DNA of 64,000 nucleotides, taken from positions 1-64,000 of IMG/VR virus record IMGVR_UViG_3300006484_000005; one strand, 5' to 3'. The stretch is from a virus. Both the position numbers and the translations under genes were made by a program. The notes beneath the pieces are model-generated. The model made no database searches, was not told the origin of the DNA, and saw only the letters and a list, made by a program, of their open reading frames with translations. Of this stretch, positions 17,711-55,272 are shown piece after piece (position 1 is the stretch's first letter; the number at the start of each line of letters is the position of its first letter).

Positions 17711-18082
17711 TTACTCTAAATCTAATTCTAATTGGTTACTAGTGTAACTTACATTAGCACCTTTTGGTAAATTAGTCCAAGTTGTATTTCCATTTGTTAT
17801 AATACTAGAAGCATTATAACTAGTACCACTTCCTGATGTTGTTGTTAAGTTTGTATCACCAGGTTGGCAAGTTATCTTATACTTATCCCATGGATTTACA
17901 TAATGTGGTTCTTGCCACATCGGGCTTGGTTTGAATTCTTCAATAGGTGATCCATAATCAGGACAATCTTTAATCTGATCCAATTCCGAAACAATGGTTT
18001 CCCATTGCTTCGGTGTTGGTCCTTCTTCATTTACTGCTCTAGCAAATCCTTTAAGCCAAAATATAAATTGATCTTTATTCAT
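17711..18082 (-). CDS. Hypothetical protein, 123 aa
   Basis: Starts MNKDQFIFWLKGFARAV, an N-terminal helix seen in small phage proteins, followed by a Ser/Thr/Asn-rich C-terminal half ending LELDLE. Overlaps the end of groEL by 8 nt. Function unknown. Confidence 0.6.
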   Translation of the reverse strand: MNKDQFIFWLKGFARAVNEEGPTPKQWETIVSELDQIKDCPDYGSPIEEFKPSPMWQEPHYVNPWDKYKITCQPGDTNLTTTSGSGTSYNASSIITNGNTTWTNLPKGANVSYTSNQLELDLE

Positions 18083-24440: not shown

Positions 24441-26111
24441 TTAATTTTCTCTACGGTCTTCTCTAGGATAAAATTCAAATCTATCATGTTCAGTTGGTGT
24501 TGCTAATAATATTCCTGGATTGAGTATTTTATCAAGTGTTTGTTGATACATAAATGACATCCAAGTTTGTTCATATGGATAACCCCATTTAGTATCTAAG
24601 AACATTTTTTTATTACCTTCACGGGATACTACTTGAGGCCAGTTACAATAATATACTTCACCAGTTGCATAAGGTAACCCATTTAATGATTTTATATTTT
24701 TAAAATTCATATTAGGGGCAGCATTCACATCACTAGTTATTTTAACTGGTCTTTCAGGAAATAATTTAGCTCTAACATCAGCAGGAACATTATGCCAAGC
24801 CCATTGTTTAGAATTATCACCATAAAACTCACTAAAATTCCATTTTAAGAAATCAAAATTTTCAGTCCAAGCAATACGCATCATTGTATTATAGAAGTCA
24901 TTAATTTTTCTCCTAAATCCGTTTCTGCAGAATTCATCATTACCTAAATAAAAGAACATATCATCTTCAAAGAAAAAATGATAATCGAATCCATTTTCAT
25001 CAGCGTGTTCAGCTATGAATTGACGTCCACCACATATTCCAATATTATCTTTTTTAATTGCTTCAAATCCATACTTTTTACATAACTTATTATATTGTTT
25101 TGTAGTTGTTAGATCTGTAGAATTATTTAATAGGTATTTTTTAGGTTTATCTAAGAAGTTCTTATCATATAATTCAAACGACATACATAATTTTTCAAAT
25201 TGAGATGGGGAATTATAAGTTAAAACATATAATGCGGTATTATTTACATCATGGTCATTTTGTAATATTTCATTATTACTTTGATTTAAATTTTTTAATG
25301 TATCATTCTTTAAATTTTCAAAAAATGTACTTAATAAACCATTTCCTTCAATTTCAAAATATTGGAATAATTCTGGATGTTTATAAAGTAAAATAGTAAA
25401 TAATGATTCTTCTGTACCCATATACCCACTAGATAGGGAATCTATCAATAATGAATAGTACATGTTATTTACTTCGGCAATTAAATCTTTAGGTCCTCCA
25501 AAAATACCTCCACGACACACTTTATCTACTTCTCCTTGAGCATATTCACACATTGGTTCGTAGGTAAAACCATGTATTTCAACTTTACCATCATATGGGA
25601 AAGCAACAAATGAAAATTTATTAAAATATTTATCTAATTTAGATAGAACTTTATCATGCCAGAAATAACCTTCATGTACTGTATTTGTTAAACCACCATC
25701 AACCCACACTAAATGTGTTGAATTAAATTTATCAAATATTCTAGCATCATTCATTAGAAACATCTTAGACATTACTAATGGATTGTATAAATCTAATTTA
25801 GCTTGTGTACTTTCTGGTAGCCATCCTGATTGGTTATACCAATTTTCATTGGTTCTAATTTTTTGTATTAAATCATAATATTCATTATTTTTAAACCAAT
25901 CTAACTCACGAATAATCACTTGAGTATTTTCAGATGAACGTCGTTCCCATACCCATTGTTCATATTCTGGTTCTATAAATACAATAAAATTGTCTGGTGA
26001 TTTTAGTAATTTGTCTAAATTATTTAAATAATGATCAAATGAACGAGACCATCCCTCAGATAATTGATCTCTTTTAATATCCCAAATTCCCGTAACTATA
26101 GTTGTACTCAT
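24441..26111 (-). CDS. Two-domain glycosyltransferase: HtrL/YibB-like plus GT-A
   Basis: The N-terminal half (1-290) reads TTIVTGIWDIKRDQLSEGWSRSF, then LVWVDGGL, a pattern of the WlaTC/HtrL family. The C-terminal half starts ALYVLTYNSPSQFEKL and holds FFFEDDMFFYL, a GT2-like metal site. The N-terminal half is related to the following gene, which suggests duplication followed by fusion. It opens the second glycan island's downstream end. Confidence 0.72.
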   Translation of the reverse strand: MSTTIVTGIWDIKRDQLSEGWSRSFDHYLNNLDKLLKSPDNFIVFIEPEYEQWVWERRSSENTQVIIRELDWFKNNEYYDLIQKIRTNENWYNQSGWLPESTQAKLDLYNPLVMSKMFLMNDARIFDKFNSTHLVWVDGGLTNTVHEGYFWHDKVLSKLDKYFNKFSFVAFPYDGKVEIHGFTYEPMCEYAQGEVDKVCRGGIFGGPKDLIAEVNNMYYSLLIDSLSSGYMGTEESLFTILLYKHPELFQYFEIEGNGLLSTFFENLKNDTLKNLNQSNNEILQNDHDVNNTALYVLTYNSPSQFEKLCMSFELYDKNFLDKPKKYLLNNSTDLTTTKQYNKLCKKYGFEAIKKDNIGICGGRQFIAEHADENGFDYHFFFEDDMFFYLGNDEFCRNGFRRKINDFYNTMMRIAWTENFDFLKWNFSEFYGDNSKQWAWHNVPADVRAKLFPERPVKITSDVNAAPNMNFKNIKSLNGLPYATGEVYYCNWPQVVSREGNKKMFLDTKWGYPYEQTWMSFMYQQTLDKILNPGILLATPTEHDRFEFYPREDRREN

Positions 26112-26983
26112 TGTAGTTGTTCTAAAACTTTATAAAATGACCGATTTCTAATAAAATATAAATTATCTTCATTTAAGTAAGCCTGAATGTTATTTTCATG
26201 CCACCATGTATCAAAATAATCAGTAGTAAATAATTCAGGGTAATTATAATAAAGAACTGTTAAGATATTCTCTTCATGCCATTGAATTTTATTATATTCT
26301 TCTATAATACTATTAACCCCATTATCAAATTTAATAAATAAATCATTAATTAACTTACTATCACCTCCGATAACACCTCCAATAACATGCCACTTTCCAT
26401 CATATTCATTAATAAAACATTCTTTAGGTTCATGAGCCCAAAAATTCAAATGATTTTCTTTTAATATCAAAAAGCATTTATTTTCGGTTTGATTATTTAA
26501 ATTAGATAAGAATGTATTATTAAATAATGGAGATGAATAATAACTTTCACCTGAAAAATAATCACCTTTACACTCCATGTATTTGTCGGGGATTAAACCA
26601 GTATATGATAAACCCGCGTCAAACCAATAAACTCTATCATAATCTGATGTAGTTTCTTCTTTCATCCAATATAATTTCATATATTGGACTTCTAAACATC
26701 TATCTGATGTTTTAGCGTCTTCAAAATTTTTATACTGTTCAAATTTATCTTTCCAATAATGATTATCTAAATCATAAGTTTTAATAGTAAGATTTTCATA
26801 CTCACCTAAATAGTTAGTTAAATTCTCTACTTCTTCTTCAGCTGTATATAATACAAAATCAGCATTTGTCATTTTTAACATTGACTTTACTGAGTTTATG
26901 TAATGATATCCTCTATTTATTCGTCCACCGAATTTAGTACCGTAAAGGTTACTATATATGCATGTTACTATCTTTGTTTTCAT
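26108..26983 (-). CDS. HtrL/YibB-like glycosyltransferase
   Basis: Starts MKTKIVTCIYSNLYGTKFGGR and contains YDRVYWFDAGLS and HVIGGVIGGDS, matching the arrangement in the N-terminal half of the neighbouring 556-aa protein. The family is associated with lipooligosaccharide or surface-glycan synthesis. Overlaps the next gene by 4 nt. Confidence 0.68.
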   Translation of the reverse strand: MKTKIVTCIYSNLYGTKFGGRINRGYHYINSVKSMLKMTNADFVLYTAEEEVENLTNYLGEYENLTIKTYDLDNHYWKDKFEQYKNFEDAKTSDRCLEVQYMKLYWMKEETTSDYDRVYWFDAGLSYTGLIPDKYMECKGDYFSGESYYSSPLFNNTFLSNLNNQTENKCFLILKENHLNFWAHEPKECFINEYDGKWHVIGGVIGGDSKLINDLFIKFDNGVNSIIEEYNKIQWHEENILTVLYYNYPELFTTDYFDTWWHENNIQAYLNEDNLYFIRNRSFYKVLEQLQ

Positions 26984-27924
26984 TAAGATATTAAGTCTTT
27001 AATTTTTAAAAATAAATTATACTCTTTAGAATTAAAATATTCATTTTTAATTTGATGAATTATTGGAAGATATTTATTATATAATTCAGTTTCATTTGAA
27101 ATAATATGTTTTAGTCTATACTCAATTTCATTTTTATCTTTTACTATATCAGTAAAATTAAATTCATCTAATTCACTTAAATATTCATTAAAATTTGAAC
27201 ACCCAAAATAAATAGGTATGGTATCGGTTAAAATACAATCCCAGAATTTTTCACTAATGTAGTTTTTTTGTATTGTATTCTCTCCTGAAATTGAAAATTT
27301 GTAATTATTAAGTCCTAACATTTTATTCCATATAGCACCTTTTACTTGTTTTCCGTTTTCTTCCCAATATTGACCATAAACATCAATATTAAAATTATTC
27401 TGAATTAAATATTCTACTATTTTAACTCGATCCTCATATATAGTTTGATATAAATCTGTATTGAAATTATAATGAGTTTCGTATGAGTTTCTAACTATGG
27501 TACTAATAGATTTATTCTTATTAAATTTTTTATTAATTAAATTACTATAAGTCCAATCATATTCAGATTCAGCAAAATTAATCTCTCCATGTCCCCCATA
27601 TAACATATAAACTAAATGTTCTTTATATGCTGGGGTATCTTCATATCCTTTTTTATCATGAACTATAATATGATTACTTATTTCATGTAAATGAGTTGAA
27701 TTATTACCTGACCATAATGGCTCCATTGTAAAGCAAAATGTAGTATCTTTACTTTTTACAATAGTATCATGACTGGGTCTCCCAAATATAAATAAAGCTT
27801 CATACGAATTATCATGAACAAATTTAATCCCATCTAATTGATTTGGATCTGTAACAAATTGTTTAATTACCCTATCAGTAATATTGTGAGAATTAGTCCA
27901 CCAACAATCTATTTTTACTTTCAT
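26983..27924 (-). CDS. GT10-like (fucosyltransferase family) glycosyltransferase
   Basis: The C-terminal half has SISGENTIQKNYISEKFWDCILTDTIPIYFGCSN, the diagnostic GT10 donor-binding motif of alpha-1,3-fucosyltransferases. Length 313 aa. It would transfer fucose or a similar sugar from a GDP-sugar. No GDP-fucose synthesis genes were seen, so donor supply would come from the host. Confidence 0.78.
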   Translation of the reverse strand: MKVKIDCWWTNSHNITDRVIKQFVTDPNQLDGIKFVHDNSYEALFIFGRPSHDTIVKSKDTTFCFTMEPLWSGNNSTHLHEISNHIIVHDKKGYEDTPAYKEHLVYMLYGGHGEINFAESEYDWTYSNLINKKFNKNKSISTIVRNSYETHYNFNTDLYQTIYEDRVKIVEYLIQNNFNIDVYGQYWEENGKQVKGAIWNKMLGLNNYKFSISGENTIQKNYISEKFWDCILTDTIPIYFGCSNFNEYLSELDEFNFTDIVKDKNEIEYRLKHIISNETELYNKYLPIIHQIKNEYFNSKEYNLFLKIKDLIS

Positions 27925-28685
27925 AGTTTGTTTTTATTATTTCTAAAAAATGACTCATATGGATATTGAGTAGCATCTGATTGTACTTTAATATATTTTG
28001 CCCCAAACATTCCTTCAATCCCTGTATCATCTCCCGATAGAATATATTTTGGATTATTATCTAAACTAAACATAAATTCTCGATTAAATGCTGAATATTT
28101 AGAAACACCTGGGCGGATGTTTTCATCTCTAATCCAATTTCCAGATGGTTGAATACCACCAATACTCCATTCAGTAACATTTCTATTATATTTACTTACA
28201 TATCTCCAAATAATGTCACCATCTTCCTCTCCAAATCCTAATAATCGCTCATCAAAATAACCTAATTCATCTAATATGTCTTTATGAACGGCATAATATT
28301 GGAATGAACTGTTAATTCTACAAATATCTGGGTGTTGATGAGTTAAATTTTGTTCTATCGTTGAAAAGAAATCATCAGATGTTAATTCTAAATCATCTTG
28401 GAGGATTACAGTCCAATCAGTAGTTGAGTGAATACATAATGTATTTACTAGTTTAGCTAATCCTCTTTGTTCTGGAAAAAATATTGGGTAAACGTTTTGA
28501 TATTCTAAACATAATTTTAAAATAGATTTCCTGTATTCGTCATCAAATAATTGTTGATAATTTCCATTTATAGCAACTATAATATCAGCGTCTGTTTGAC
28601 TTCTAATTTGGGATAAAAACTTAGTAAAGTAATCTAAACGATTAATAAAAGTAGTAATTCCTATGGTGTATTTTTTATCTGTCAT
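27921..28685 (-). CDS. Family 2 glycosyltransferase
   Basis: Starts KKYTIGITTFINRLDYFTKFLSQI. Metal site VILQDDLELTSDDFF, and a C-terminal YFDERLLGFGEEDGDIIWRY matching the (G/E)ED acceptor loop of the family. Overlaps both neighbours. Confidence 0.82.
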   Translation of the reverse strand: MTDKKYTIGITTFINRLDYFTKFLSQIRSQTDADIIVAINGNYQQLFDDEYRKSILKLCLEYQNVYPIFFPEQRGLAKLVNTLCIHSTTDWTVILQDDLELTSDDFFSTIEQNLTHQHPDICRINSSFQYYAVHKDILDELGYFDERLLGFGEEDGDIIWRYVSKYNRNVTEWSIGGIQPSGNWIRDENIRPGVSKYSAFNREFMFSLDNNPKYILSGDDTGIEGMFGAKYIKVQSDATQYPYESFFRNNKNKL

Positions 28686-29358
28686 AATATAATTTATTAC
28701 CCCAATCAGTAAAATGAGGCAAATGATAAGGTGAAATATTTGTTATTGGTTGACGATTTATTTTTCGTAGTAATTTATCTAAAGCATCTCCATCTTCTCC
28801 TCCCCACGTAGTAAATACAGGATCAAACCCTCCAATTTCTTTTAATGGTTTTGTGGGTGTAATAAAGAAGGCTCCTAATCCTCCAACACAACCATTTCCA
28901 ATAGCATAATTAAAATTGGTTTTTGATTTTAATGTTTTATTTTCATAATCAACAAACTCATCCCCACTAATTTTTTTCCAATCAAAATTATAAACAAAAT
29001 CGGAATCTAAATTGTTGTATAAATCTAAAATTAATGGATATTCTTCTTCATCAAAGAAACAGTCTGAATCTATAATTGATATAAAATCACTTTTTGAACG
29101 ATCTAATGCTATGTTTATTTTTTCTGAGCGTTTATATACTGATAATGGGTAAGGAATATGAATTGAATTTTCAATTATTTTATTAGGAGAGAAATCATAC
29201 ACTATATAATTAACATTACCTCCATTTTGGTTAATAAAATTAACTAATTCGGTATTTTTCTCAATAGTGAACAAAACATTACGTTCTCTATCACTATCTT
29301 CCCTACCATCGGTCCAAAATAAAGTAATTAAATCCCAAATTTTATTTTGATTTGTCAT
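28675..29358 (-). CDS. GT2-like glycosyltransferase with galactosyltransferase C-terminal motif
   Basis: ISIIDSDCFFDEEEYPLIL contains the DSD metal site. GGFDPVFTTWGGEDGDALDKLL is the galactosyltransferase-type WGxED loop. The start at 29358 (MTNQNKIWDL) is chosen over 29373 because it keeps a 17-nt overlap with the upstream methyltransferase. Confidence 0.78.
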   Translation of the reverse strand: MTNQNKIWDLITLFWTDGREDSDRERNVLFTIEKNTELVNFINQNGGNVNYIVYDFSPNKIIENSIHIPYPLSVYKRSEKINIALDRSKSDFISIIDSDCFFDEEEYPLILDLYNNLDSDFVYNFDWKKISGDEFVDYENKTLKSKTNFNYAIGNGCVGGLGAFFITPTKPLKEIGGFDPVFTTWGGEDGDALDKLLRKINRQPITNISPYHLPHFTDWGNKLYYDR

Positions 29359-29899
29359 ATATCCAACAAGCACCTATTACAGATATTTTTTCTTGCCCAA
29401 AGAATTCGTTAACAGCAGGATAAACACCACAATCATAATGATAATCATGACCCGATATAATCCCGGTTGATTTTACTTTTGGAGCCCACGCTATTAAGTC
29501 TTTTTTTACGCTTTCATAATCATGTCCTGCATCAATGAATACAAAATCTAAGCTATCATCTGCGTAATTAGAAGCTGCGTCCCATGATACATCTTTGATA
29601 ATATTAATTTTATCCTTTACAGGTTCTATATTATTTAAAAATATATCATATAAATTTTCAAATTGATCTTCTTCTAATTCTTTAGATGTTGGAACATATT
29701 CCCAAGTATCAACACAATCAAATTTTATGTCTTTGTTTGAGTTTATAATCTCAACAGCCATAAAGCAAGCACTCATTCCCTTCCAAACCCCCACTTCAAC
29801 GAAGTGAGAGTTTGTTGGAAATTTAGATACTATTGAAGAGTATAAATCTTCATAATTAAACCAGTTTTCACTGTTTACATTTTTATAAAAATGCTCCAT
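29342..29899 (-). CDS. Class I SAM-dependent methyltransferase (Methyltransf_24-like)
   Basis: SAM motif I FVEVGVWKGMSACFMA, then FDCVDTWE, LDFVFIDAGHDYESVKKDL and ISGHDYHYDCGVYPAV. This fits small-molecule or sugar methyltransferases of the type-24 family. Probably methylates a glycan in this cluster. Confidence 0.82.
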   Translation of the reverse strand: MEHFYKNVNSENWFNYEDLYSSIVSKFPTNSHFVEVGVWKGMSACFMAVEIINSNKDIKFDCVDTWEYVPTSKELEEDQFENLYDIFLNNIEPVKDKINIIKDVSWDAASNYADDSLDFVFIDAGHDYESVKKDLIAWAPKVKSTGIISGHDYHYDCGVYPAVNEFFGQEKISVIGACWIYDKSK

Positions 29900-31164
29900 T
29901 ATAAATTACCTTCTATTTTATCACACCATCCTTTTGATATTGAATGTGGCCAAACAATCCATTTAGTTGGTTTACCACCATAATTAAATTCCCTCCAAAC
30001 TTTACAATAACCATCTGGATCGTTTTTCATGCGTTTGATTTCATCGCTATCAGCATCCTTTCTAAATATAGTTTCTCCAGTTTCATTTTCAAATGCTACA
30101 CACCAGAAATCATAATCATCTTCAGGAACGCGATCATACCCAACATCAATACAATGTTTAAATATTGTTAAAAATGCGTTTTCGTATTCAGTTTCATCTT
30201 CAATTACTGGATTAGGAGCAAATTTATTATCTAAAGTATACTGCTGCACACCTCTAGTTTTAAATTTTAATCCAGCATAACGCTCATAATCTTGTAATGT
30301 GCGTTCTTCACCAAACCAATACTGTCCAATATTACTACGCATACAAGGTGAACATTCTCCATCCATCCCAAATAATGAACGGTTTCTGAAGTGAGATGCA
30401 TTATTTTTAGCTACCCATTCTGGATCATCATCCCAATGTTTTGTTCTACCTTTACGAGTATATTCATGCCAAGCTACTACTTTATGAGGGTGAAATAAAT
30501 CATATCCATGAGTATAAGCTCTAACAGCAATCGAAATTTCTTCACCATGGAAGTAATAATTTGGATCATGAGGTACTTCTAAAGCAAACTGACCTAAAGT
30601 AAAACAGAAGTGAGCTGAATAGAATCTTGCAGGAACTGGTTCAGTCATATCTTCCCATCCTGGAATGGTTGCTGGTAGGAAAAATACAGCACCTTCAGGG
30701 ATAAATCTGTCAAACGTCATCCACCAAGGTTCTTTAACTCGTTCATCTGGATCGTTTTCAGGGTTAAAACTAGAAATATATGCTGTTAATAATGGTTTTT
30801 TATGGCCTTTTTCTTGGAGTTGTTTAATCATTCCAATTAAGGTTTCATCCCAATTTTCAGCAAATCTATGATGTGAATCAATTTGTAATGTATAATCTTC
30901 TCCACCATAATGTTGTTGGATTAAATTACGTGCCCAACAAGCCCCTAAAGATGATTTATATTCTACATCTACTATTTTAAATCGAGAATCGTCCCGGTAT
31001 TTATCTATATCTTTAGAAAATGTATCATCATCACTAAACTGATGAGCAATACAAAATACTAAATTTTCTGGATGTTTAGCATTAGAGATACAATCTTCAA
31101 CTGTAGGCAACAATTGGGGATCACGGTATGAAGCAATTTGAATAAATATTTTATCGTTTTGCAT
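29899..31164 (-). CDS. GlcNAc-transferase family protein (PF11397-like)
   Basis: IFIQIASYRDPQLLPTVEDCI at the N-terminus, then GACWARNLIQQHY and YTLQIDSHHRFAENWD (DSH metal site), FHGEEISIAVRAYTHGYDLFHP. This is the pattern of the Skp1-type polypeptide GlcNAc-transferases also found in bacteria and phages. Acceptor unknown. Length 421 aa. Confidence 0.83.
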   Translation of the reverse strand: MQNDKIFIQIASYRDPQLLPTVEDCISNAKHPENLVFCIAHQFSDDDTFSKDIDKYRDDSRFKIVDVEYKSSLGACWARNLIQQHYGGEDYTLQIDSHHRFAENWDETLIGMIKQLQEKGHKKPLLTAYISSFNPENDPDERVKEPWWMTFDRFIPEGAVFFLPATIPGWEDMTEPVPARFYSAHFCFTLGQFALEVPHDPNYYFHGEEISIAVRAYTHGYDLFHPHKVVAWHEYTRKGRTKHWDDDPEWVAKNNASHFRNRSLFGMDGECSPCMRSNIGQYWFGEERTLQDYERYAGLKFKTRGVQQYTLDNKFAPNPVIEDETEYENAFLTIFKHCIDVGYDRVPEDDYDFWCVAFENETGETIFRKDADSDEIKRMKNDPDGYCKVWREFNYGGKPTKWIVWPHSISKGWCDKIEGNL

Positions 31165-31699
31165 TTTTTAATTCGTCTTCTGTAAAGAATTGTTTTAAAT
31201 TTGGGGCGAAATATGATAATGATTTTTGTACTTTACGATCTTCTGAACGATATACAACGTATTTATCACCACGTTTTTCAAAATGGCATGGACGTTGTGA
31301 AGCAGCAGCTCTATATTTAGCAGTTGCATCAGCTTCTTCCTCTGTAGCACATGATTTAGATAAATTAGATGCTTGTACTTCACCATATGCAGATAAGAAT
31401 TTATCTTTTAATCCATAGGCCATAATGCCTGCTGATAGCACGTACATAATATCACAAAAGGCATCCATTACTCCGATAATATCACCATCATCAGCTGCTA
31501 CTTTATATTCATCTAATTCTTCTTGGATGAAGTTATAGATAAAATCACGTTCCATTTTTTCTGGAATCGTAGGAATGTAATTGTTTAGTTTACCGAATAA
31601 TCTGTTGAATGTTTCTACTTCAGTAATAAAGTGTAAACGATCAGCATCAATTTCTTTTTTGATAATTTGGTCTTGCCAAGTTTGTTCTGTGTTTTCCAT
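31151..31699 (-). CDS. MazG-like nucleoside triphosphate pyrophosphohydrolase
   Basis: The core FIQEELDEYKVAADDGDIIGVMDAFCDIMYVL shows the ExxE...D...D metal-binding pattern of all-alpha NTP pyrophosphatases (PRA-PH/MazG superfamily). Such phage enzymes trim nucleotide pools or lower (p)ppGpp-type signals. The C-terminal 60 residues are extra. Starts 7 nt after folE. Confidence 0.72.
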   Translation of the reverse strand: MENTEQTWQDQIIKKEIDADRLHFITEVETFNRLFGKLNNYIPTIPEKMERDFIYNFIQEELDEYKVAADDGDIIGVMDAFCDIMYVLSAGIMAYGLKDKFLSAYGEVQASNLSKSCATEEEADATAKYRAAASQRPCHFEKRGDKYVVYRSEDRKVQKSLSYFAPNLKQFFTEDELKNAKR

Positions 31700-31705
31700 A
31701 ACTGA

Positions 31706-32416
31706 TTAAATATATGCTTGTAGGTTAAATTTTAACATTTCTAATACTTCTTGTTTAGCTGTTTTAGCGTGGTCAGCAAATACACCTGATACTTCAGACG
31801 TCATCATACTAGCACCCATATGTTTAACTCCACGACATGATACACAATTGTGTGTTGCATGCATCATTACCATAATACCTTCGTTACCTACAATTAATTT
31901 ATCCATAGCATTATGAATAGCCATAGTTAATTGTTCTTGAATAGCGCCTCTACGTGAGAAATGTTCAACTACACGATTTAATTTTGATAATCCGATTACC
32001 TTTGATTCAGGACCTGGCACATATGCAATATGACATTTACCTAAAATTGCTTGGTGGTGATGAGAACACATTGATATTACTGGAATATCGCGCTCTAATA
32101 CAATACCATTATAACCATCTGATGGGAATGCTGTAACATCGCCTAATACTTCGTAACGACCTCTCCATAAATCATTAACGTATGCTTTGGCTACACGTTT
32201 TGGTGTGTTAGATGAATTTGGATCGTTTTTCCAATCAACACCTAATGCGTCTAAGAAATTACCATATGCAATAGTTGCATTATCGATAATGGTTTGTTTT
32301 TCTTCTACGGTTAGAGATCGCTCTTTACCTTCGGTTTTAATGATTTGTTGTAAATGGAGTGAGATACCATTTGCATTACCTGAATTGGTAATTTCTAAAT
32401 TGCTAATTTCGCACAT
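31706..32416 (-). CDS. folE: GTP cyclohydrolase I
   Basis: Converts GTP to 7,8-dihydroneopterin triphosphate, the first step to both folate and 7-deazaguanines. Zinc ligands are visible: Cys 117 and the HHH run at 119-121 (SMCSHHHQA), and Cys 191 (THNCVSCRGVKH). The GLSKLNRVVEHFSRR block is also conserved. The other preQ0 genes lie about 20 kb away at 51.2-54.8 kb. A promoter-like motif lies just upstream. Confidence 0.93.
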   Translation of the reverse strand: MCEISNLEITNSGNANGISLHLQQIIKTEGKERSLTVEEKQTIIDNATIAYGNFLDALGVDWKNDPNSSNTPKRVAKAYVNDLWRGRYEVLGDVTAFPSDGYNGIVLERDIPVISMCSHHHQAILGKCHIAYVPGPESKVIGLSKLNRVVEHFSRRGAIQEQLTMAIHNAMDKLIVGNEGIMVMMHATHNCVSCRGVKHMGASMMTSEVSGVFADHAKTAKQEVLEMLKFNLQAYI

Positions 32417-42992: not shown

Positions 42993-43065
42993 GTTACCCG
43001 AGCAGGATTCGAACCTACCATAAGCGCACCAAAAACGCTTGTGTTACCGCTACACCATCGAGCAA
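42993..43065 (-). tRNA. tRNA-Gln (TTG)
   Basis: Acceptor TTGCTCG with CGGGTAA, T-loop TTCGAAT, anticodon loop TTTTGGT on an AGCGT/GCGCT stem. No encoded CCA. Confidence 0.82.
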
Positions 43066-43072
43066 TTTACTG

Positions 43073-43144
43073 TAGCCCCAACGGGAATCGAACCCGTGAC
43101 TCATCCGTGAAAGGGACGTGACTTAACCGCTTGTCGATAGGGCC
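43073..43144 (-). tRNA. tRNA-Glu (TTC)
   Basis: Anticodon loop CTTTCAC on a CGTCC/GGATG stem, T-arm CGGG TTCGATT CCCG, acceptor GGCCCTA with TGGGGCT. Confidence 0.87.
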
Positions 43145-43151
43145 ATTACTG

Positions 43152-43224
43152 AGCTTCCGGTCGGGGTCGAACCAACGGCCTGCTGATTACAAGTCAGCTG
43201 CTCTACCATCTGAGCTACGGAAGC
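43152..43224 (-). tRNA. tRNA-Thr (TGT)
   Basis: Acceptor GCTTCCG with CGGAAGC, D-arm TAGCTCAGATGGTAGAGC, anticodon loop CTTGTAA on a GCTGA/TCAGC stem. Confidence 0.9.
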
Positions 43225-43225
43225 A

Positions 43226-43329
43226 ATTTAGGAAAGTGGAAGATGGGTGCGTGGACATCTACTTTTATGATTGGCATTTCTAACCGATCGTACCCGCCCT
43301 TCCTACAGTTAAAGGATACATCCCAATCA
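43226..43329 (-). ncRNA. Structured RNA candidate between tRNA genes
   Basis: Two elements: a bulged hairpin at about 43234-43266 (AGATG with CATCT plus AAGT with ACTT) and a 7-bp closed structure at 43268-43329 (TGATTGG with CCAATCA) holding an internal TCCT/AGGA hairpin. It has no T-loop signature, so it is not an ordinary tRNA. Confidence 0.4.
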
Positions 43330-43340
43330 ACCTATTAAAT

Positions 43341-43414
43341 AAAACACAATCACTTCACATCTGCAAGTGCAAAAGATTGTCGAGCTAATTGCATATACAA
43401 TCTAATTGTGTTTT
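43341..43414 (-). ncRNA. Compact 74-nt three-way-junction RNA candidate
   Basis: Closed by a perfect 10-bp stem (43341-43350 with 43405-43414). Inside are a 5-bp hairpin (43351-43355 with 43365-43369) and a 7-bp hairpin (43374-43380 with 43397-43403). It is the size of a tRNA but lacks a T-loop, and it ends next to tRNA-Ser. No known class recognised. Confidence 0.45.
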
Positions 43415-43415
43415 G

Positions 43416-43500
43416 AGGAGAGTGAGGGATTCGAACCCCCGGTCCTATTACAGACAATAGTTTTCAAGACTACCTCGTTCGACCGCTCTGACAACTCTCC
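43416..43500 (-). tRNA. tRNA-Ser (TGA)
   Basis: Class II tRNA with a long variable arm. Acceptor GGAGAGT with ACTCTCC, anticodon loop CTTGAAA on a GTAGT/ACTAT stem, T-loop TTCGAAT. Confidence 0.9.
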
Positions 43501-43509
43501 TTACATAAT

Positions 43510-43525
43510 AAACATAATCAGGAAA
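43510..43525 (-). promoter_or_regulatory. Promoter-like element inside the tRNA cluster
   Basis: Coding strand reads TTTCCTGATTATGTTT, ten bases before tRNA-Ser. A 7-bp hairpin (43520-43538) overlaps it, so it may combine termination and re-initiation. Confidence 0.4.
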
Positions 43526-43540
43526 TCTTATATTTCCTAG

Positions 43541-43615
43541 AGTTGAGTGCTGGATTCGAACCAGCGATTTTATCGTTTTGCAAACGAGTGCGTTTGGCCA
43601 CTCCGCCAACTCAAC
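43541..43615 (-). tRNA. tRNA-Cys (GCA)
   Basis: Acceptor GTTGAGT with ACTCAAC, T-arm GCTGG TTCGAAT CCAGC, anticodon loop TTGCAAA. Confidence 0.85.
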
Positions 43616-43620
43616 TTATG

Positions 43621-43691
43621 CACACCCTCTAGGACTCGAACCTAGAACAACGGTTTTGGAGACCGTGATGATACCATTTCACCAAAGATGC
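43621..43691 (-). tRNA. tRNA-Trp (CCA)
   Basis: Anticodon loop CTCCAAA on an ACGGT/ACCGT stem, T-arm CTAGG TTCGAGT CCTAG, acceptor with several G-U pairs. Confidence 0.85.
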
Positions 43692-43696
43692 ATATT

Positions 43697-43797
43697 AACT
43701 TATCAGATGAATATTTTATCCCCATATGGGCCACAGCCATTAAGTGTATTACTTTCATTCATCGGCTATCACACGGTTTCACCGCATATGATAAGTT
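43697..43797 (-). ncRNA. 101-nt three-way-junction RNA candidate
   Basis: Closed by a perfect 9-bp stem (43697-43705 with 43789-43797). A 7-bp stem (43706-43712 with 43757-43763) and a 4-bp hairpin (43774-43777 with 43781-43784, loop GAA on the RNA strand) lie inside. It fits exactly between tRNA-Trp and tRNA-Tyr. No family recognised. Confidence 0.45.
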
Positions 43798-43799
43798 TG

Positions 43800-43879
43800 T
43801 GGGAGTGGAGGGATTCGAACCCCCAATGTCGTAGACCACAGATTTACAGTCTGCTAAGCAACCGTTGCTCAACACTCCC
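43800..43879 (-). tRNA. tRNA-Tyr (GTA)
   Basis: Class II length. Acceptor GGGAGTG with CACTCCC, anticodon loop CTGTAAA on a CAGA/TCTG stem, T-loop TTCGAAT. Confidence 0.88.
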
Positions 43880-47118: not shown

Positions 47119-48264
47119 TTAATTTGATAATGGTGCTTTAATTCCTGAATGTGATTCATATCCGATTAGCTCAAAGCAATCTGGACGATATGATAATATT
47201 TTTTCACTAAATGTTTTTGGTCCTAATCGTTCTTTAACTAACTCGTGTTGGTACCAATTACGTTCAGTAATGTTTACTTTTGGTAATGAAAATGGCTTAC
47301 GTAATATTTGCATTTTAGCTTGTTCAATATGATTTTTATATAAATGAACATCACCTAAATTACCAATCAATTCATCAGGTATCATATTAACTTCTTTTGC
47401 TATGATTTCTAATAATAAAGCATATGAAGCAATGTTAAATGGTAATCCTAAAAATGTATCTACTGAACGTTGATTCCACATTAAAGAGATTGCTTTAGTT
47501 GGAATATTAACATCATCACAAGTTTTTTTAATTATTTCAAGTATTTTTTTACCAGATTTATAATTTTTTGCATTACTATTCAATAAACCACTATAACCTT
47601 TTTTTCCCAAAATAGATTGTCTTTCTCCTAAACTAAGCTCTCTTGTATACATTTGAAATCCATAATGACAAGGTGGTAAAACCATTTGGTCTAACTCTGC
47701 TACATTCCAAGCTGATACCATCAATCTTCTACTATCTGGATTAGTTCTAAGTGAATGAATTAATTGTAAGATTTGGTCATACCACAATGAACCTTTCTCA
47801 TTACCATTCATATCCATCCAACCTTGCCACTGTCTCCATTGCTTACCATAGATTGGTCCTAAATCACCTAATTTATAACCTGTTAAATCAGGAATAAAAT
47901 GTGATTGTTTGTTATTACTAAGTTTGATAGCTGAAATGAATTGTTCTTTTGACATTGGGTCTACACTATGTGTAACACATTGTGCTTCGTATCCTTTATA
48001 AGCATCACCATCCCAAATGTGGCAATTGTAATCCAATAGGAATTTGATATTGGTATCACCACGTAAAAACCATAATAATTCAGTTACGATTGATTTCCAC
48101 GCCATCTTCTTTGTGGTTAGCAATGGAAATCCATCAGACATTTTATGACGAATCTGACGTCCAAATACGGATATAGTACCAGTACCTGTTCTATCAGATT
48201 TTTCTACTCCGTTGTCTAAAATGTCTTGTAATAATGCTTGATAATGTTTGTCTATATTATTCAT
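47119..48264 (-). CDS. thyA: Thymidylate synthase with large insertion
   Basis: Converts dUMP to dTMP with methylenetetrahydrofolate. RTGTGTISVFGRQIRHKMSDGFPLLTTKK is the N-terminal phosphate loop. The catalytic Cys is in VLPPCHYGFQMY near residue 193. The C-terminal LGDVHLYKNHIEQA is conserved. Length of 381 aa exceeds the usual 264-286. An insertion follows the catalytic Cys (from ELSLGERQ to about IPTKAISLMWNQRSVD). Start overlaps the bilin reductase stop by 1 nt. Confidence 0.93.
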   Translation of the reverse strand: MNNIDKHYQALLQDILDNGVEKSDRTGTGTISVFGRQIRHKMSDGFPLLTTKKMAWKSIVTELLWFLRGDTNIKFLLDYNCHIWDGDAYKGYEAQCVTHSVDPMSKEQFISAIKLSNNKQSHFIPDLTGYKLGDLGPIYGKQWRQWQGWMDMNGNEKGSLWYDQILQLIHSLRTNPDSRRLMVSAWNVAELDQMVLPPCHYGFQMYTRELSLGERQSILGKKGYSGLLNSNAKNYKSGKKILEIIKKTCDDVNIPTKAISLMWNQRSVDTFLGLPFNIASYALLLEIIAKEVNMIPDELIGNLGDVHLYKNHIEQAKMQILRKPFSLPKVNITERNWYQHELVKERLGPKTFSEKILSYRPDCFELIGYESHSGIKAPLSN

Positions 48265-48881
48265 TATTGAATTTTTGGAAATAAAACTGTGTCCATAAAA
48301 TATTTAGCGCGTTCTTCACCTAATTTAGCTTTCAATACATTATATGTACGTTCATTTTTAGATTGTTGTTCGCAATAATAATTTTGTGCTTCAACTACTA
48401 ATTTAGGGTCAGCAAATAGACCTACTGTTTCAGTATACGATTCAAATAAATCGGTTGCTTCACTACATAATCGAACCATTTCTTCAGTACCTGGTCTAAT
48501 TGCTACTGCGTGTTCTGAAAATATATTATTAGCCCATTCAGGTAGTGGGTATGGTTTTTTAAATTCGTAATCAATAAATTTATCAGGTGAATACGTAACT
48601 GGGGATAAATCAATGAATGCAGCTAATGGTTTTTCATTGGTACATATAATATCAAATCCAAATATTGGATCCGCAAAATTCAATTGGGGGAATGCTGTAA
48701 AGTGTAGTACTTCTAATGCTCTATCACTATAGCGTTCAATATGAGCTATACGAAACGAATCAGAAACATATCGGGTGTTTTCCCACCCGAAGTCTTCTGT
48801 TTCAATTTCAAATCCATTATTTTCAATCAGAATACTTTTTAAAATATTAGCTGTTTGATCCAGTAGCGTTTTGTAACTCAT
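48264..48881 (-). CDS. Ferredoxin-dependent bilin reductase
   Basis: Family of PcyA, PebS and PcyX, which reduce biliverdin to phycobilins using ferredoxin. LEVLHFTAFPQLNFADPIFGFDII (His 60) and LAAFIDLSPV (Asp 91, equivalent to the catalytic proton-donor Asp) form the core fold. At 205 aa it is short for the family. It overlaps heme oxygenase by 35 nt, so substrate supply is coupled. Whether the product is a PEB- or PCB-type bilin cannot be read from sequence alone. No ferredoxin gene is in the window. Confidence 0.87.
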   Translation of the reverse strand: MSYKTLLDQTANILKSILIENNGFEIETEDFGWENTRYVSDSFRIAHIERYSDRALEVLHFTAFPQLNFADPIFGFDIICTNEKPLAAFIDLSPVTYSPDKFIDYEFKKPYPLPEWANNIFSEHAVAIRPGTEEMVRLCSEATDLFESYTETVGLFADPKLVVEAQNYYCEQQSKNERTYNVLKAKLGEERAKYFMDTVLFPKIQ

Positions 48882-49362
48882 CTGCTATATTAATGATAAA
48901 TTGAAATCCTTTATTTACTTCGTCTGCCCACTCGTCTTTTTGAGTTGCTCTAATAGATCCTACAGATACATGCATGTTTTCAAAATCATACATTTTACCT
49001 GAACCTGGTACTTTGGTTTTCATCATTTGACCACCATAAGCTAATGCTAAATAATTTAAATAAACGTGTGGTAAAAGTTCTTCTTGAGTAAGTGATGATA
49101 AATATTCAGAATATTCAAATGCGGTTGGGAGATATTCTATTTCATCTGATTTTAATTCAAGTAAATCTTCTTTAACTTTATCAACACGAGCTAATGATGG
49201 GTGTGGAAGTTGTTTTGCTTCAATTGCTTCAAATATTATTAATTGTTGGTACAAATATTTTGCATATTCTTCTGTTGATAATTCACCACGAAACATTCGT
49301 TGGTTAAATTCCATTTTTTCTGCTTTACTGTGTAGTTCAGCTGTTGCTTCTCTTAATCCCAT
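48847..49362 (-). CDS. Heme oxygenase (biliverdin-producing)
   Basis: Opens heme to biliverdin, CO and iron. REATAELHSKAE carries the proximal heme ligand His 11. YAKYLYQQLIIFEAIE and the distal-helix YLNYLALAYGGQ (Gly 110-Gly 111-Gln 112) are family hallmarks. Length of 171 aa is a little short of the 200-240 aa of bacterial enzymes. It feeds the bilin reductase that overlaps its 3' end. Confidence 0.9.
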   Translation of the reverse strand: MGLREATAELHSKAEKMEFNQRMFRGELSTEEYAKYLYQQLIIFEAIEAKQLPHPSLARVDKVKEDLLELKSDEIEYLPTAFEYSEYLSSLTQEELLPHVYLNYLALAYGGQMMKTKVPGSGKMYDFENMHVSVGSIRATQKDEWADEVNKGFQFIINIADELQNATGSNS

Positions 49363-51179: not shown

Positions 51180-51953
51180 CTAAACTTCCCTCTTGTCACC
51201 GTATGCAATGATGTGATCTCGTCCTGAAAAATTATATGAATGTGCTGTACAGTAATCTAATACTATTGGGTACATTTTAATTAATTCTTCACGAGTATCG
51301 CCAGCAGGCATAATCCATGTTTTGTGTTTTGGTATATTAAAGCGTTTTCTGAATGCCTCAATCTCATACATTAATTCAGATGTACCATCCCATACTGGTT
51401 TAAAATGGTAGTTCTTATGGTATGCTAATAATTGACGAATTGCATCATATTTTTCTCTATACTTATTATGTTGATCAATCATTTTCTGATCTACAATTTT
51501 ACCTTGTGGTGTTTCAACACCAATTACTGGGATTGAATTAGAGAATTTTGGTGATAATGAAATAACATCAATACGATGATCTGTAATTAATGGATGTGAT
51601 CCTTCGGTTTCAATAGTTACAATACCTTTCTTATCATGTAGTGCTTTAAATAAATTAATGATTTCATTACACATTTCAGGATGCATTGTAGGCGAACCAC
51701 CAGTCAGCATCAAATGATTAATATCCCAATTGTCAGAAAAGAACTGCTTAATATCAGTTAATGTATATTTACCTTTTTCTGGATGGATTGATGTATACCA
51801 TGAATCACACCATCCACCTTCACCAAAGTAACACCTATGAGTACATCCTGTAGTACGTACAATGATATGTGGTTTACCAGCTAATGATCCTTCGGTTTGA
51901 ACGCAACGATATACTTCTAATATAGGTTGTGTTTTAGTATAATCTAGTGCCAT
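51180..51953 (-). CDS. queE: 7-carboxy-7-deazaguanine synthase (radical SAM)
   Basis: Third step of preQ0 synthesis: 6-carboxytetrahydropterin to CDG. YRCVQTEGSLAGKPHIIVRTTGC is the family N-terminus. The radical-SAM iron-sulfur Cys set is C37, C41 and C49 (C-x3-C-x7-C), unlike the usual C-x3-C-x2-C. MLTGGSPTMHPE and IETEGS match the SAM-binding strands. Length 257 aa. Confidence 0.88.
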   Translation of the reverse strand: MALDYTKTQPILEVYRCVQTEGSLAGKPHIIVRTTGCTHRCYFGEGGWCDSWYTSIHPEKGKYTLTDIKQFFSDNWDINHLMLTGGSPTMHPEMCNEIINLFKALHDKKGIVTIETEGSHPLITDHRIDVISLSPKFSNSIPVIGVETPQGKIVDQKMIDQHNKYREKYDAIRQLLAYHKNYHFKPVWDGTSELMYEIEAFRKRFNIPKHKTWIMPAGDTREELIKMYPIVLDYCTAHSYNFSGRDHIIAYGDKREV

Positions 51954-52167
51954 CTTGTTTTTCTTTTAATTTTAAACGTTTAGCTAATTTTTTATCTACA
52001 ACTACTTCTGCATTAACATCTACCTCAACGGTTTTCTTATTTGCATCGCGTACTTTAATTTTCCATTCGGCTTTAGGAGCAAATGTCCATCCATGTACTT
52101 TTACTTTGTTATCAGCATCTACATCTGATACTCTACGGATTTCACCGTCTTTTTTAATACATTTCAT
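51934..52167 (-). CDS. Small hypothetical protein, 77 aa
   Basis: Basic and beta-rich, starting MKCIKKDGEIRRVSDVDAD. Overlaps queE by 20 nt. Function unknown. Confidence 0.55.
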   Translation of the reverse strand: MKCIKKDGEIRRVSDVDADNKVKVHGWTFAPKAEWKIKVRDANKKTVEVDVNAEVVVDKKLAKRLKLKEKQDGTRLY

Positions 52168-52304
52168 ATTTTGAATTTTAATTTAATTAATTGTTGAATG
52201 TAAGTAAGAAAATTCACATCACCAGCGAGTACAGATAAAATGTTAGGGTGTGCATCGCCGCACACTCCTAACAAATGACTAATAACATGTCTAATTTCCT
52301 CCAT
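52164..52304 (-). CDS. Small hypothetical protein, 46 aa
   Basis: ATG at 52304 overlaps the queC stop region; the protein starts MEEIRHVISHLLGVCGDAHP. A longer frame from 52358 lies inside queC. No family. Confidence 0.45.
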   Translation of the reverse strand: MEEIRHVISHLLGVCGDAHPNILSVLAGDVNFLTYIQQLIKLKFKI

Positions 52305-53224
52305 TATTTGGCGTATTCTGCTAATACTTGTTCTACTGCTGCTTTGGCAACTTCCCAACTAACTGGACCATTCTCATCGGCATAATTTACTGGATCAGGA
52401 CGTCCTAATCGAATAAATGCTTCGATACGTTCAACTGATGCTGCTGATTTATAATCTGAATACCATGTTCCAACTTCGGTTAATGCTGTAACTTTACCTG
52501 TTATTTGATCTGTATGAGACATTGCAGCAATGAATATTGGCTTGTATGATGTATTAGTACGTTTGTATACTTGATTAAAATCTAAACCTAATTTTTCACA
52601 ACATGCTAATCCGTCTTCCAAAATAGTAAATTTATTACCTTCCAAATATGGAGTATAATGGTATACTAATTCAGAATCCCAATTACCAATTTTAAATGCT
52701 TCCATATCGGCATCACGGAATTCTTGACGGCAATCAGGATAAATAGCATGATCACCAGCGTGAATACCCATCGCAATCGCTACTTCTTGCTTATCTCCTT
52801 TAGTTGCAATCGATAATGCCGCTGCTTGAATTAATGAAGCGAATATTTTATTACGATTTGGTACAACAGTTTCTTTCATGTTGTCTTGCTCGTAATGTCC
52901 TTCAGGTACATCATCTCCTCCTGTAACTAATGCTGAATGTAGTAGATTCTGTAATCCATCTAATTTAATAATTTGATGTTTTATTAATGGAAAATTTTCA
53001 CCAGTTACTGTAATTGTTCCTAATTGATCTTGTTCTGTTTTTTGAGAGCATCCATTTAGATATTCAACTAATGATTTAGCACGATCTAATTCAACGTGGT
53101 GTTTTTGACCATAATCAAATCCTAATGCTGTAACTTCATAGCCGTTAGCAAGTAGATGAAGTAATAATGTGGAGGAATCCATTCCTCCGGATAATGATAA
53201 AACTGCTTTTTTTGTACTAGACAT
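52304..53224 (-). CDS. queC: 7-cyano-7-deazaguanine (preQ0) synthase
   Basis: ATP-dependent step from CDG to preQ0. PP-loop SGGMDS at residues 12-17 and GFDYGQKHHVELDRA follow the family. GIHAGDHAIYPDCRQEF is also conserved. The usual C-terminal zinc Cys cluster (CGxCxxC before RxxAF) is missing: the region reads YKSAASVERIEAFIRLGRPDPVNYAD. Length 306 aa is longer than the 220-240 aa of bacterial QueC. It may still work, as the PP-loop is intact. Confidence 0.88.
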   Translation of the reverse strand: MSSTKKAVLSLSGGMDSSTLLLHLLANGYEVTALGFDYGQKHHVELDRAKSLVEYLNGCSQKTEQDQLGTITVTGENFPLIKHQIIKLDGLQNLLHSALVTGGDDVPEGHYEQDNMKETVVPNRNKIFASLIQAAALSIATKGDKQEVAIAMGIHAGDHAIYPDCRQEFRDADMEAFKIGNWDSELVYHYTPYLEGNKFTILEDGLACCEKLGLDFNQVYKRTNTSYKPIFIAAMSHTDQITGKVTALTEVGTWYSDYKSAASVERIEAFIRLGRPDPVNYADENGPVSWEVAKAAVEQVLAEYAK

Positions 53225-53261
53225 AAAATTATAAAATATAAGATTGGAACGTATTGTTTTA

Positions 53262-53465
53262 TTAATCGATTAGTCCCGATAACCGACGTACTGTAAAAAA
53301 TTCATCTAATAATGTTTGCTCATATAATAATACTTTTCCAGTATACCGTGGATTAGCTACTTCACGAGTTTCAATTTTAGCTTTTTTAGATGTAGCATAT
53401 GCTGCTACTTCAGCTCCTAATTCTTTACCAGCTGCGTGACCTAAATAATCAAATAATGATACCAT
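53262..53465 (-). CDS. Small hypothetical protein, 67 aa
   Basis: Starts MVSLFDYLGHAAGKELGAEV. Helical at first, basic in the middle. It lies between queD and queC. Function unknown. Confidence 0.55.
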   Translation of the reverse strand: MVSLFDYLGHAAGKELGAEVAAYATSKKAKIETREVANPRYTGKVLLYEQTLLDEFFTVRRLSGLID

Positions 53466-53488
53466 AACTTTTATTTTGTTTATACTAT

Positions 53489-53504
53489 AAATTTAATTAA
53501 GAAA
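53489..53504 (-). promoter_or_regulatory. Promoter-like element between queD and the 67-aa gene
   Basis: Coding strand reads TTTCTTAATTAAATTT, starting right after the queD stop and ending 23 nt before the ATG at 53465. It may drive the queC/queE part. Confidence 0.45.
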
Positions 53505-53984
53505 TTAAATAGGCATGTATTCCTCTTCGTATGAAGCTGAATTACGGCCATTTTCGAATACTTCTACTTTAGCTACTCTAACTCTGTAATGTGTTTCGTC
53601 TTGAACGAATTCATTAATCTTTTGAAATAGATATTCAGCAAAACGTTCAGCGCCAACGTAAGGTAAAATACGTAACTGGATAATTCCATCATCAGCCATT
53701 TGTTTGAATTGCTCTAAATATGGATCGTCTTCAGCAATGATTGTAGTGTGATCTAATAAATAATCGAACCATTGTTTTGGATTCATACCATCAATATTTC
53801 CATTAGCGCGTTTCATACCACCAAAATCCCATACCCAATTTTTCTCATCTAAATCTCCTTCAAAATCTACTTTAAAGGATATAGCGTACCCATGTAAGAA
53901 CCTACAGTGGGTTCCTTCTGCTCTCCATTGACGAAATACGGTGGAGAATCCATCAAATAATTTTGATGATTTGAATGTAATCAT
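53505..53984 (-). CDS. queD: 6-carboxytetrahydropterin synthase-like protein
   Basis: Second step of preQ0 synthesis. C27 (THCRFLHGY) is the catalytic Cys, D53 is in VWDFGGMK and H79 in LLDHTT. The usual zinc triad is altered: HGH is HGY (Tyr 33), and the first ligand His is replaced in FRQWRAEG. H26 might compensate. Length of 159 aa is near the family. It overlaps the DpdA-like gene by 4 nt. Confidence 0.83.
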   Translation of the reverse strand: MITFKSSKLFDGFSTVFRQWRAEGTHCRFLHGYAISFKVDFEGDLDEKNWVWDFGGMKRANGNIDGMNPKQWFDYLLDHTTIIAEDDPYLEQFKQMADDGIIQLRILPYVGAERFAEYLFQKINEFVQDETHYRVRVAKVEVFENGRNSASYEEEYMPI

Positions 53985-54775
53985 GATAATAGTGTTCTAA
54001 AATGTTTAACGTTATATAATACATCAGAAATTTGTTGATCCGATAATCTCTGATCAAAGTATGTTTCTAATTTTTCTTTTGGTTTATCTAACAATACTTC
54101 ATCTGGGTATTTACCGTGTTTTAAACCATAAATAACTGGGTTAGATGTATCGATTGTTTTGATGAATGAATATTCTTTACCTTTATAATTAGAGAATTCA
54201 TTAGGTAATGTAGCACCTAATAAGTGATGATGAATTGTTTTATTAAATCCATTTAATGATGGAAGCATATTAACGAATTTAATACGTCCCGTCATTAAAC
54301 TTAATAACTCGTTTTGATGCTTATATAATTCCTTAAAATAAACCCCAGCATGATTTAATGCAATGTGGGTGTAACCTAACTCAACGAATTTACTATATGT
54401 AAGCATCGCATCAGATACAGTTTTTGCTTGTACTACTGCCATTAGATTAGTTGTAGATGGGATTTTATCTACATAATAATCAATCCATTTTTTAGCGTTT
54501 TTAACTGTTGTTTGGGGGTCATTCCATGCATCAGGAACAATGAATATACTTGGCTTAATATCATTGATTTTCTCGAGTAAATCTTCGATTGTATGCGATA
54601 CTCCTTCAAATAAACCATTGTCCATGATGATTAAATCTCCACGTTCAGATGCGCTTTTAAAGAATTGATAGTACTGTTTATTTTCTAATAAGTGAGGTAA
54701 ACAATAATGATAGTCATTAAATTTTAATGACTCATCTAATAGATCTAACGGTACTTCGTGGGAAACCAATGCCAT
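53981..54775 (-). CDS. DpdA-like DNA 7-deazaguanine transglycosylase
   Basis: TIM-barrel protein of the tRNA-guanine transglycosylase superfamily, 264 aa and without the C-terminal zinc Cys of Tgt. The pattern DLIIMDNGLFEG (D52-N-G) and IFIVPDAW (D82) supplies candidate catalytic acids. It is encoded next to queD, close to queC and queE, which points to DpdA rather than tRNA Tgt. It would swap guanine in DNA for preQ0 or a derivative, protecting phage DNA from restriction. Confidence 0.72.
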   Translation of the reverse strand: MALVSHEVPLDLLDESLKFNDYHYCLPHLLENKQYYQFFKSASERGDLIIMDNGLFEGVSHTIEDLLEKINDIKPSIFIVPDAWNDPQTTVKNAKKWIDYYVDKIPSTTNLMAVVQAKTVSDAMLTYSKFVELGYTHIALNHAGVYFKELYKHQNELLSLMTGRIKFVNMLPSLNGFNKTIHHHLLGATLPNEFSNYKGKEYSFIKTIDTSNPVIYGLKHGKYPDEVLLDKPKEKLETYFDQRLSDQQISDVLYNVKHFRTLLS

Positions 54776-54777
54776 AA

Positions 54778-55272
54778 CTATTTATTATAATTTTTTAAGT
54801 ATTCATAGAATTCTGAAGTAGTGCCATCGAATTCTTCTGCTAATTCATTAATTAAATCTATACGAGACAATTTGTCAGGCCCCAAATGTCTGAAATCTCC
54901 AGCTAATTCGCCTACCAATTCTGACCATATTTTTGGTTCTTCCTTATCGAACGCATTCATTAATTTATGGTAACGATCGTATTGTTGTTTTTCAATTACT
55001 TCTCTACGATTCATCCAAGCTTCGTGAGATGGATATTTCTTACGTTCGGTTTTTAATCGATCGTCTAATAACCATAACTCATAAAACGCTTGTTGCCTAT
55101 AATCAGATATTTCAAAATCCCCATTTTTAATGCGGGTATCTAATGGAGTGTACTTGTGCATTGGTTGACGTGATTTAAAACGCCTCCAATAATAAAATAC
55201 ATTAAAGTTCGCTGGTTGGAACTTCTGTTCCACTATCGTTTGAATGTTGTTTGGGTATTTCCTTATTTGCAT
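54778..55272 (-). CDS. Hypothetical protein, up to 164 aa
   Basis: Helical and charged. A start at 55161 (MHKYTPLDTR) would avoid the 71-nt overlap with the 68-aa gene, so the N-terminus is uncertain. No family recognised. Confidence 0.55.
   Translation of the reverse strand: MQIRKYPNNIQTIVEQKFQPANFNVFYYWRRFKSRQPMHKYTPLDTRIKNGDFEISDYRQQAFYELWLLDDRLKTERKKYPSHEAWMNRREVIEKQQYDRYHKLMNAFDKEEPKIWSELVGELAGDFRHLGPDKLSRIDLINELAEEFDGTTSEFYEYLKNYNK

Follow-up and report, generated by a model that had tools for sequence, protein, structure and literature searches.

The gene set FolE, QueD, QueE, QueC and DpdA is the minimal set that accompanies the modified nucleoside of 7-cyano-7-deazaguanine (preQ0), dPreQ0, in the DNA of phages CAjan and Rosebush, where it amounts to about 30% of G (PMC6884629). 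In its passages on Campylobacter phages, the same paper cites dADG, the deoxynucleoside of 7-amido-7-deazaguanine (ADG), and the section of a review that treats Firehammervirus, the genus of CP220, describes deoxyguanosine (dG) as completely replaced by deazaguanine derivatives (PMC10273834, citing Crippen 2019). Here we analyze a locus at positions 51180-54775 of a 64,000-base window (bases 1-64000 of the 118,326-base IMG/VR virus record IMGVR_UViG_3300006484_000005), which contains queE, queC, queD and a gene for a 264-residue Tgt-like protein. We consider it likely, with a probability of about 0.8, that this is a deazaguanine DNA-modification operon with an enzyme of the type found in Campylobacter phage CP220 and Flavobacterium phage vB_FspM_immuto_2-6A (immuto), and that the phage DNA contains dPreQ0 or dADG and resists restriction.

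All five genes, folE included, lie on the minus strand exactly where the first-pass annotation had placed them, and those for QueE, QueC, QueD and FolE have significant family matches. The order of transcription is nrdB, nrdA, a gene for a 164-residue protein, the dpdA-like gene (53981-54775), queD, a 67-residue gene, queC, a 77-residue gene and queE. The product of queD (53505-53984, overlapping the dpdA-like gene by four bases) is a 6-carboxytetrahydropterin synthase-like protein of 159 residues (PF01242, 8.8e-15; PHROG, 1.6e-39); queC (52304-53224) encodes a variant of 306 residues (PF06508, 3.6e-36), and queE (51180-51953) a 257-residue 7-carboxy-7-deazaguanine synthase of the radical S-adenosylmethionine type (Radical_SAM PF04055, 6e-8; QueE-like PHROG, 3.5e-47). 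The GTP cyclohydrolase I gene folE (31706-32416; PF01227, 2.5e-44), whose product has the zinc-site residues, is found 19 kb further along from queE. When related viral loci are dereplicated by clustering their DpdA proteins at 90% identity, 81 clusters result, with queC in 76, queD in 70 and queE in 64; such recurrence shows that the gene arrangement is not due to chance.

Searches of Pfam, NCBIfam and PADLOC models gave no significant match to the 264-residue protein, and since hhalign likewise gave no identity, structure was used for its superfamily placement. The AlphaFold2 model, built from an alignment of 34 relatives, has a mean predicted local distance difference test score (pLDDT) of 93.7 and a predicted template modelling score of 0.91. 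The best 50 Protein Data Bank (PDB) matches listed by Foldseek comprise tRNA-guanine transglycosylase (TGT) entries, the top one with an E value of 7e-9 and a probability of 1.00, and the DNA preQ0 insertase DpdA 7ui4, which stands at rank 21 among those listed (E 4e-8, probability 1.00). Matches among viral structure models include phiST, nt-1 and several "queuine tRNA-ribosyltransferases". Asp52 (in MDNG) and Asp209 (in DTSNP) are invariant in the 34 relatives and line up with the "DSGAF" and "DSS" motifs of known DpdA, the DSGAF correspondence being found in a second alignment as well. The model thus supports assignment of the protein to the Tgt/DpdA superfamily, with a predicted (beta/alpha)8 fold of the Tgt type; grouping with another TIM-barrel family, which would have spoken against the first-pass annotation, was not seen. 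A phmmer search of PDB sequences returned only response-regulator matches, which we judge to be chance.

By sequence, the 264-residue protein belongs with CP220 gp056 and the immuto "DpdA" and not with the CAjan or Rosebush type. Its tblastn matches in 50,697 phage records are gp056 of the Campylobacter CP220-group phages (35% identity, 98% coverage, E 2e-28), immuto gp65, annotated as DpdA (34%, 3e-32), and, more distantly, Cellulophaga phages of the phiST group (25%) and Bacillus phages of the BSP7 group (25%, weak). Transglycosylases of full-replacement phages were reportedly named DpdA3 by Cui et al. in 2023, and homology to CP220 gp056 makes the window enzyme probably a member of this subfamily. 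In the species genome collection, relatives are encoded only by five contigs of metagenome-assembled genomes (MAGs), four of them with the same Que genes; these look like phage contigs within bins, so the family seems to be viral.

The zinc sites of QueC and QueD are remodelled. Canonical QueC (PF06508 cluster 1), as characterized in the passages of PMC13329287 on its motifs, has SGGxDS, YxQxHxxE, VPxRN and YPDC, an essential Tyr189 and the zinc motif C(x)8CxxCxxC. The window protein shares the catalytic motifs (SGGMDS, YGQKHxxE, VPNRN and YPDC) and the equivalent of Tyr189, as do nearly all of 72 aligned relatives, whereas none of the four zinc cysteines is left: the substitutions C188S, C197S, C200K and C203A (the last being A or S in relatives) are uniform and yield a conserved motif, TSYKP...SDYKSA[AS]S[VI]ER. 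Of the 74 dereplicated clusters in which QueC is complete, 73 show this replacement. A further scan, which started from the window QueC and was hence biased towards its own type, returned only the zinc-less form; in 74 of the 82 loci, a count that includes the five MAG contigs found through DpdA, dpdA lies on the same stretch as queC. The cysteines are kept in QueC of CP220, CAjan, Godines, KVP40, BSP7 and Escherichia coli. For the window QueC, the best match of the structure model (pLDDT 84.5) is still Bacillus subtilis QueC (3bl5). As far as the passages of PMC13329287 go, that survey does not include the zinc-less clade.

In QueD, the residues C27, H31, D70-H71 and E110 (E. coli numbering) are kept in the window protein, while two of the three canonical zinc-binding histidines (H16, H31 and H33) are absent, namely H16 and H33. 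C27, D70, H71 and E110 are retained in 67 of 67 sequences, and the form that lacks H16 and has a tyrosine at H33, with H31 alone remaining, occurs in 121 of 130 loci (about 93%). Eight loci of the same system have a canonical QueD, which suggests that both forms do the same job. In QueE of the window and related loci, the third cluster cysteine is displaced: instead of CX3CX2C, the spacing is CX3CX7C in 28, the window protein having this form, and the remaining ones looked at have a longer insertion. The zinc-less QueC and the reduced-site QueD mark a variant of CP220/immuto-type (DpdA3-like) deazaguanine modification that is widespread among uncultured phages.

The related loci show at least three layouts. 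The first, immuto-like, runs queC-dpdA-queF-formyltransferase-kinase-folE; the second, that of the group nearest to the window, runs queD/dpdA-67aa-queC-77aa-queE-folE-phosphoribosyltransferase; and the third runs dpdA-queC-queD-queE-folE-mazG. QueF is present in 10 of the 81 clusters, in 8 of them together with the formyltransferase and the kinase. The queC-dpdA-queF-formyltransferase-kinase order is seen in the sister loci L113, L121, L126, L128, L138 and L147, and predicts a formylated base of the preQ1 type in these uncultured phages. Because QueF consumes preQ0 and is located beside the zinc-less QueC in this layout, the latter presumably makes preQ0. In about 20 clusters, a phosphoribosyltransferase resembling guanine/xanthine enzymes (Gpt-like) adjoins folE (for example, L066:14187-14597 and L069:13857-14270) and could serve to recover guanine set free in the exchange. 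For the window phage itself such salvage was set aside, as no homolog of the Gpt-like enzyme was found in the record.

Based on the above data, we propose that FolE, QueD, QueE and the zinc-site-less QueC would convert GTP into a 7-deazaguanine base, with preQ0, or else its amide precursor ADG, as the most likely product. The 264-residue enzyme would then exchange guanine for this base through an aspartate nucleophile, so that much or all of the phage dG may become dPreQ0 or dADG and the DNA may resist host restriction. Several observations weigh against this proposal. The first-pass annotation's assignment of the 264-residue protein to the Tgt/DpdA superfamily stands by structure comparison but not by sequence profiles, hhalign against Tgt or DpdA giving probabilities of only 1-4%. 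Zinc ligands are missing from both QueC and QueD, whose chemistry could thus be altered. A QueF absence judged by Pfam alone is weak evidence, because a divergent QueF (G017) likewise falls short of the profile's cut-off, and a tailoring gene may be missing from view, as the record is linear, lacks end repeats and may be incomplete.

The identity of the base is where the first-pass annotation, which had named unmodified preQ0 as most likely, has to be widened. A viral 7-deazaguanine DNA-modification system is borne out by structure, catalytic residues and synteny, and no QueF match above the Pfam cut-off was found in the 118-kb record (the weak match being folE itself) or in 18 related contigs; a profile seeded on the immuto QueF found none in the record either. 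PADLOC, applied to the 125 proteins of the record, gave no Dpd-named model and only QueC among the 25 of 37 families listed. The expectation that the minimal set yields dPreQ0, however, derives from DpdA of the CAjan/Rosebush type, and the window enzyme is of the CP220/immuto type; preQ0 is therefore one candidate and not an established base. Since the CP220 group, also without an annotated QueF, is reported to have dADG and complete replacement of dG, replacement here may likewise be complete rather than partial. The strongest competitor, a minority possibility that we take seriously, is that the DNA base is dADG, either because QueC stops at the amide or because the transglycosylase prefers ADG, as in CP220. 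That phage is the nearest functionally informed one with this type of transglycosylase and has a comparable gene set, and the remodelled zinc-site region of the window QueC adjoins the tyrosine described as essential in the relevant passages of PMC13329287. Zinc loss does not, however, track with dADG, as the CP220 QueC retains its cysteines, and in the 10 clusters with QueF the zinc-less QueC stands beside an enzyme that needs preQ0; on both grounds we rejected cysteine loss as a marker of ADG production. We thus regard dPreQ0 as somewhat more likely than dADG, and a further-modified base as possible.

A more doubtful alternative concerns the level at which the base is exchanged: a MazG-type enzyme would convert deoxyguanosine triphosphate (dGTP) to the monophosphate (dGMP), the transglycosylase would swap guanine on dGMP, and a dedicated kinase would rebuild the triphosphate for incorporation by the phage polymerase. 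A P-loop kinase (AAA_28) is indeed encoded outside the window, at positions 116805-117329 of the record (L017:12805-13329, minus strand), and is homologous to those near dpdA in Campylobacter and immuto phages. Such a kinase directly follows dpdA in CP220 and lies two genes from it in immuto, it is part of the queC-dpdA-queF-formyltransferase-kinase-folE block in the 8 clusters mentioned above, and small P-loop open reading frames adjoin in phiST and BSP7. Of 18 larger contigs with dpdA, 16 have a kinase homolog, as does the window record; among the 50,697 phage records, the window kinase matches only Campylobacter, immuto and Streptomyces phages, and its nearest PDB relatives include NadR, thymidylate kinase and deoxyguanosine kinase. 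Nevertheless, the kinase is far from dpdA in the window genome and in the nearest group, the kinases from one architecture share only about 25% identity with those from the other, and a MazG of the window type occurs in only 4 of the 18 contigs. Known DpdA acts on DNA. In infections of the CP220 type, Crippen and co-workers in 2019 reportedly saw no phosphates of dADG inside the cells, and Cui and co-workers are said to have concluded in 2023 that insertion is post-replicative, all of which counts against exchange on nucleotides. At 62 kb from the operon, the kinase is unsupported as an operon partner in the window genome. A combined scheme, in which QueD and QueC function although they lack the usual zinc sites, the base is exchanged on deoxynucleotides with the help of the kinase and MazG, and a fully dG-free genome is polymerized directly, seems slightly less probable still. 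Lastly, it is very improbable that the Que genes serve host tRNA queuosine as auxiliary metabolism, a role proposed for phages that have preQ0 genes and lack a recognized DpdA (PMC6884629), given that the operon holds a relative of the transglycosylase of a Campylobacter phage with fully modified DNA and that no QueA/QueG/QueH-type gene is among the families found, although no search was aimed at them.

Besides the proposed DNA-modification genes, three conserved small genes are present on the minus strand, none of whose products has a family match. The 164-residue protein (54778-55272), directly upstream of dpdA, and the 77-residue protein between queC and queE (51934-52167) are each found in 30 of the 81 DpdA clusters; the 67-residue protein (53262-53465) is found in 43 of them and in immuto, and its usual place in related loci is just upstream of queC. 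Adjoining folE on the same strand is a MazG-like nucleotide pyrophosphohydrolase gene (31151-31699; PF01503, 2.2e-8; phrog_671, 1.4e-22), whose product is a possible dGTP hydrolase; folE and mazG are neighbors in several further related loci. Between this pair and the DNA polymerase gene is a cassette (24441-31164, minus strand) for an N-acetylglucosamine (GlcNAc) transferase (PF11397), a methyltransferase, a GT7/GT2 protein, a GT10 fucosyltransferase, an unknown gene and an HtrL_YibB fusion, the partner region of which shows a weak likeness to TET-associated/hydroxymethylcytosine glucosyltransferase. The cassette could serve to decorate the DNA, the capsid or the surface of the host, and the GlcNAc transferase follows folE again in 11 related loci, some of them near-identical.

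The record encodes a T4-group family-B-type DNA polymerase, a DnaB helicase, UvsX, a gp32-like protein and a tail sheath, which identifies the phage as myovirus-type; it is T4-like and probably infects Bacteroidota. Seven tRNA genes (Gln, Glu, Thr, Ser, Cys, Trp and Tyr) are clustered at window positions 42993-43879 and a GroEL chaperonin is encoded at 18075-19712 (phrog_5725, 9e-156), both on the minus strand. At 48264-49362, on the same strand, a gene for a ferredoxin-dependent bilin reductase (PF05996, 2e-24) overlaps one for heme oxygenase (PF01126, 1.6e-15), in a phage that is probably non-cyanobacterial.

The locus puts a large clade of uncultured viruses, more than 500 stretches in IMG/VR, alongside the transglycosylases associated with complete guanine replacement. 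It also adds a version of the pathway whose QueC and QueD lack conserved metal sites and keep the remainder of their active sites. This variant bears on the need for zinc in QueC (amide versus nitrile step), on how QueD functions when a single zinc ligand out of three is left, and on the choice between DNA and nucleotide as substrate; from the sister clusters with QueF and formyltransferase, related phages are predicted to have a second base, derived from preQ1. With Escherichia phage CAjan and Mycobacterium phage Rosebush, the window phage has the minimal gene set in common (DpdA, FolE, QueC, QueD and QueE), but their DpdA shows little detectable sequence similarity to the 264-residue protein beyond the active-site motifs, and QueC of CAjan and of the Rosebush-group phage Godines has the zinc cysteines that the window QueC lacks. 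With CP220 it shares the homologous compact transglycosylase gp056 and the kinase, QueF being annotated in neither; CP220 differs in having a QueC with zinc cysteines, a QueD with GH and HSH motifs, scattered genes and a kinase directly after gp056. With immuto it has in common a zinc-less QueC (64% identical), a QueD of the HGY type, QueE, FolE, MazG, the 67-residue protein and a homologous DpdA; immuto is set apart by the QueF and formyltransferase genes beside dpdA, both not found in the window phage, from which a preQ1-derived base is predicted for immuto.

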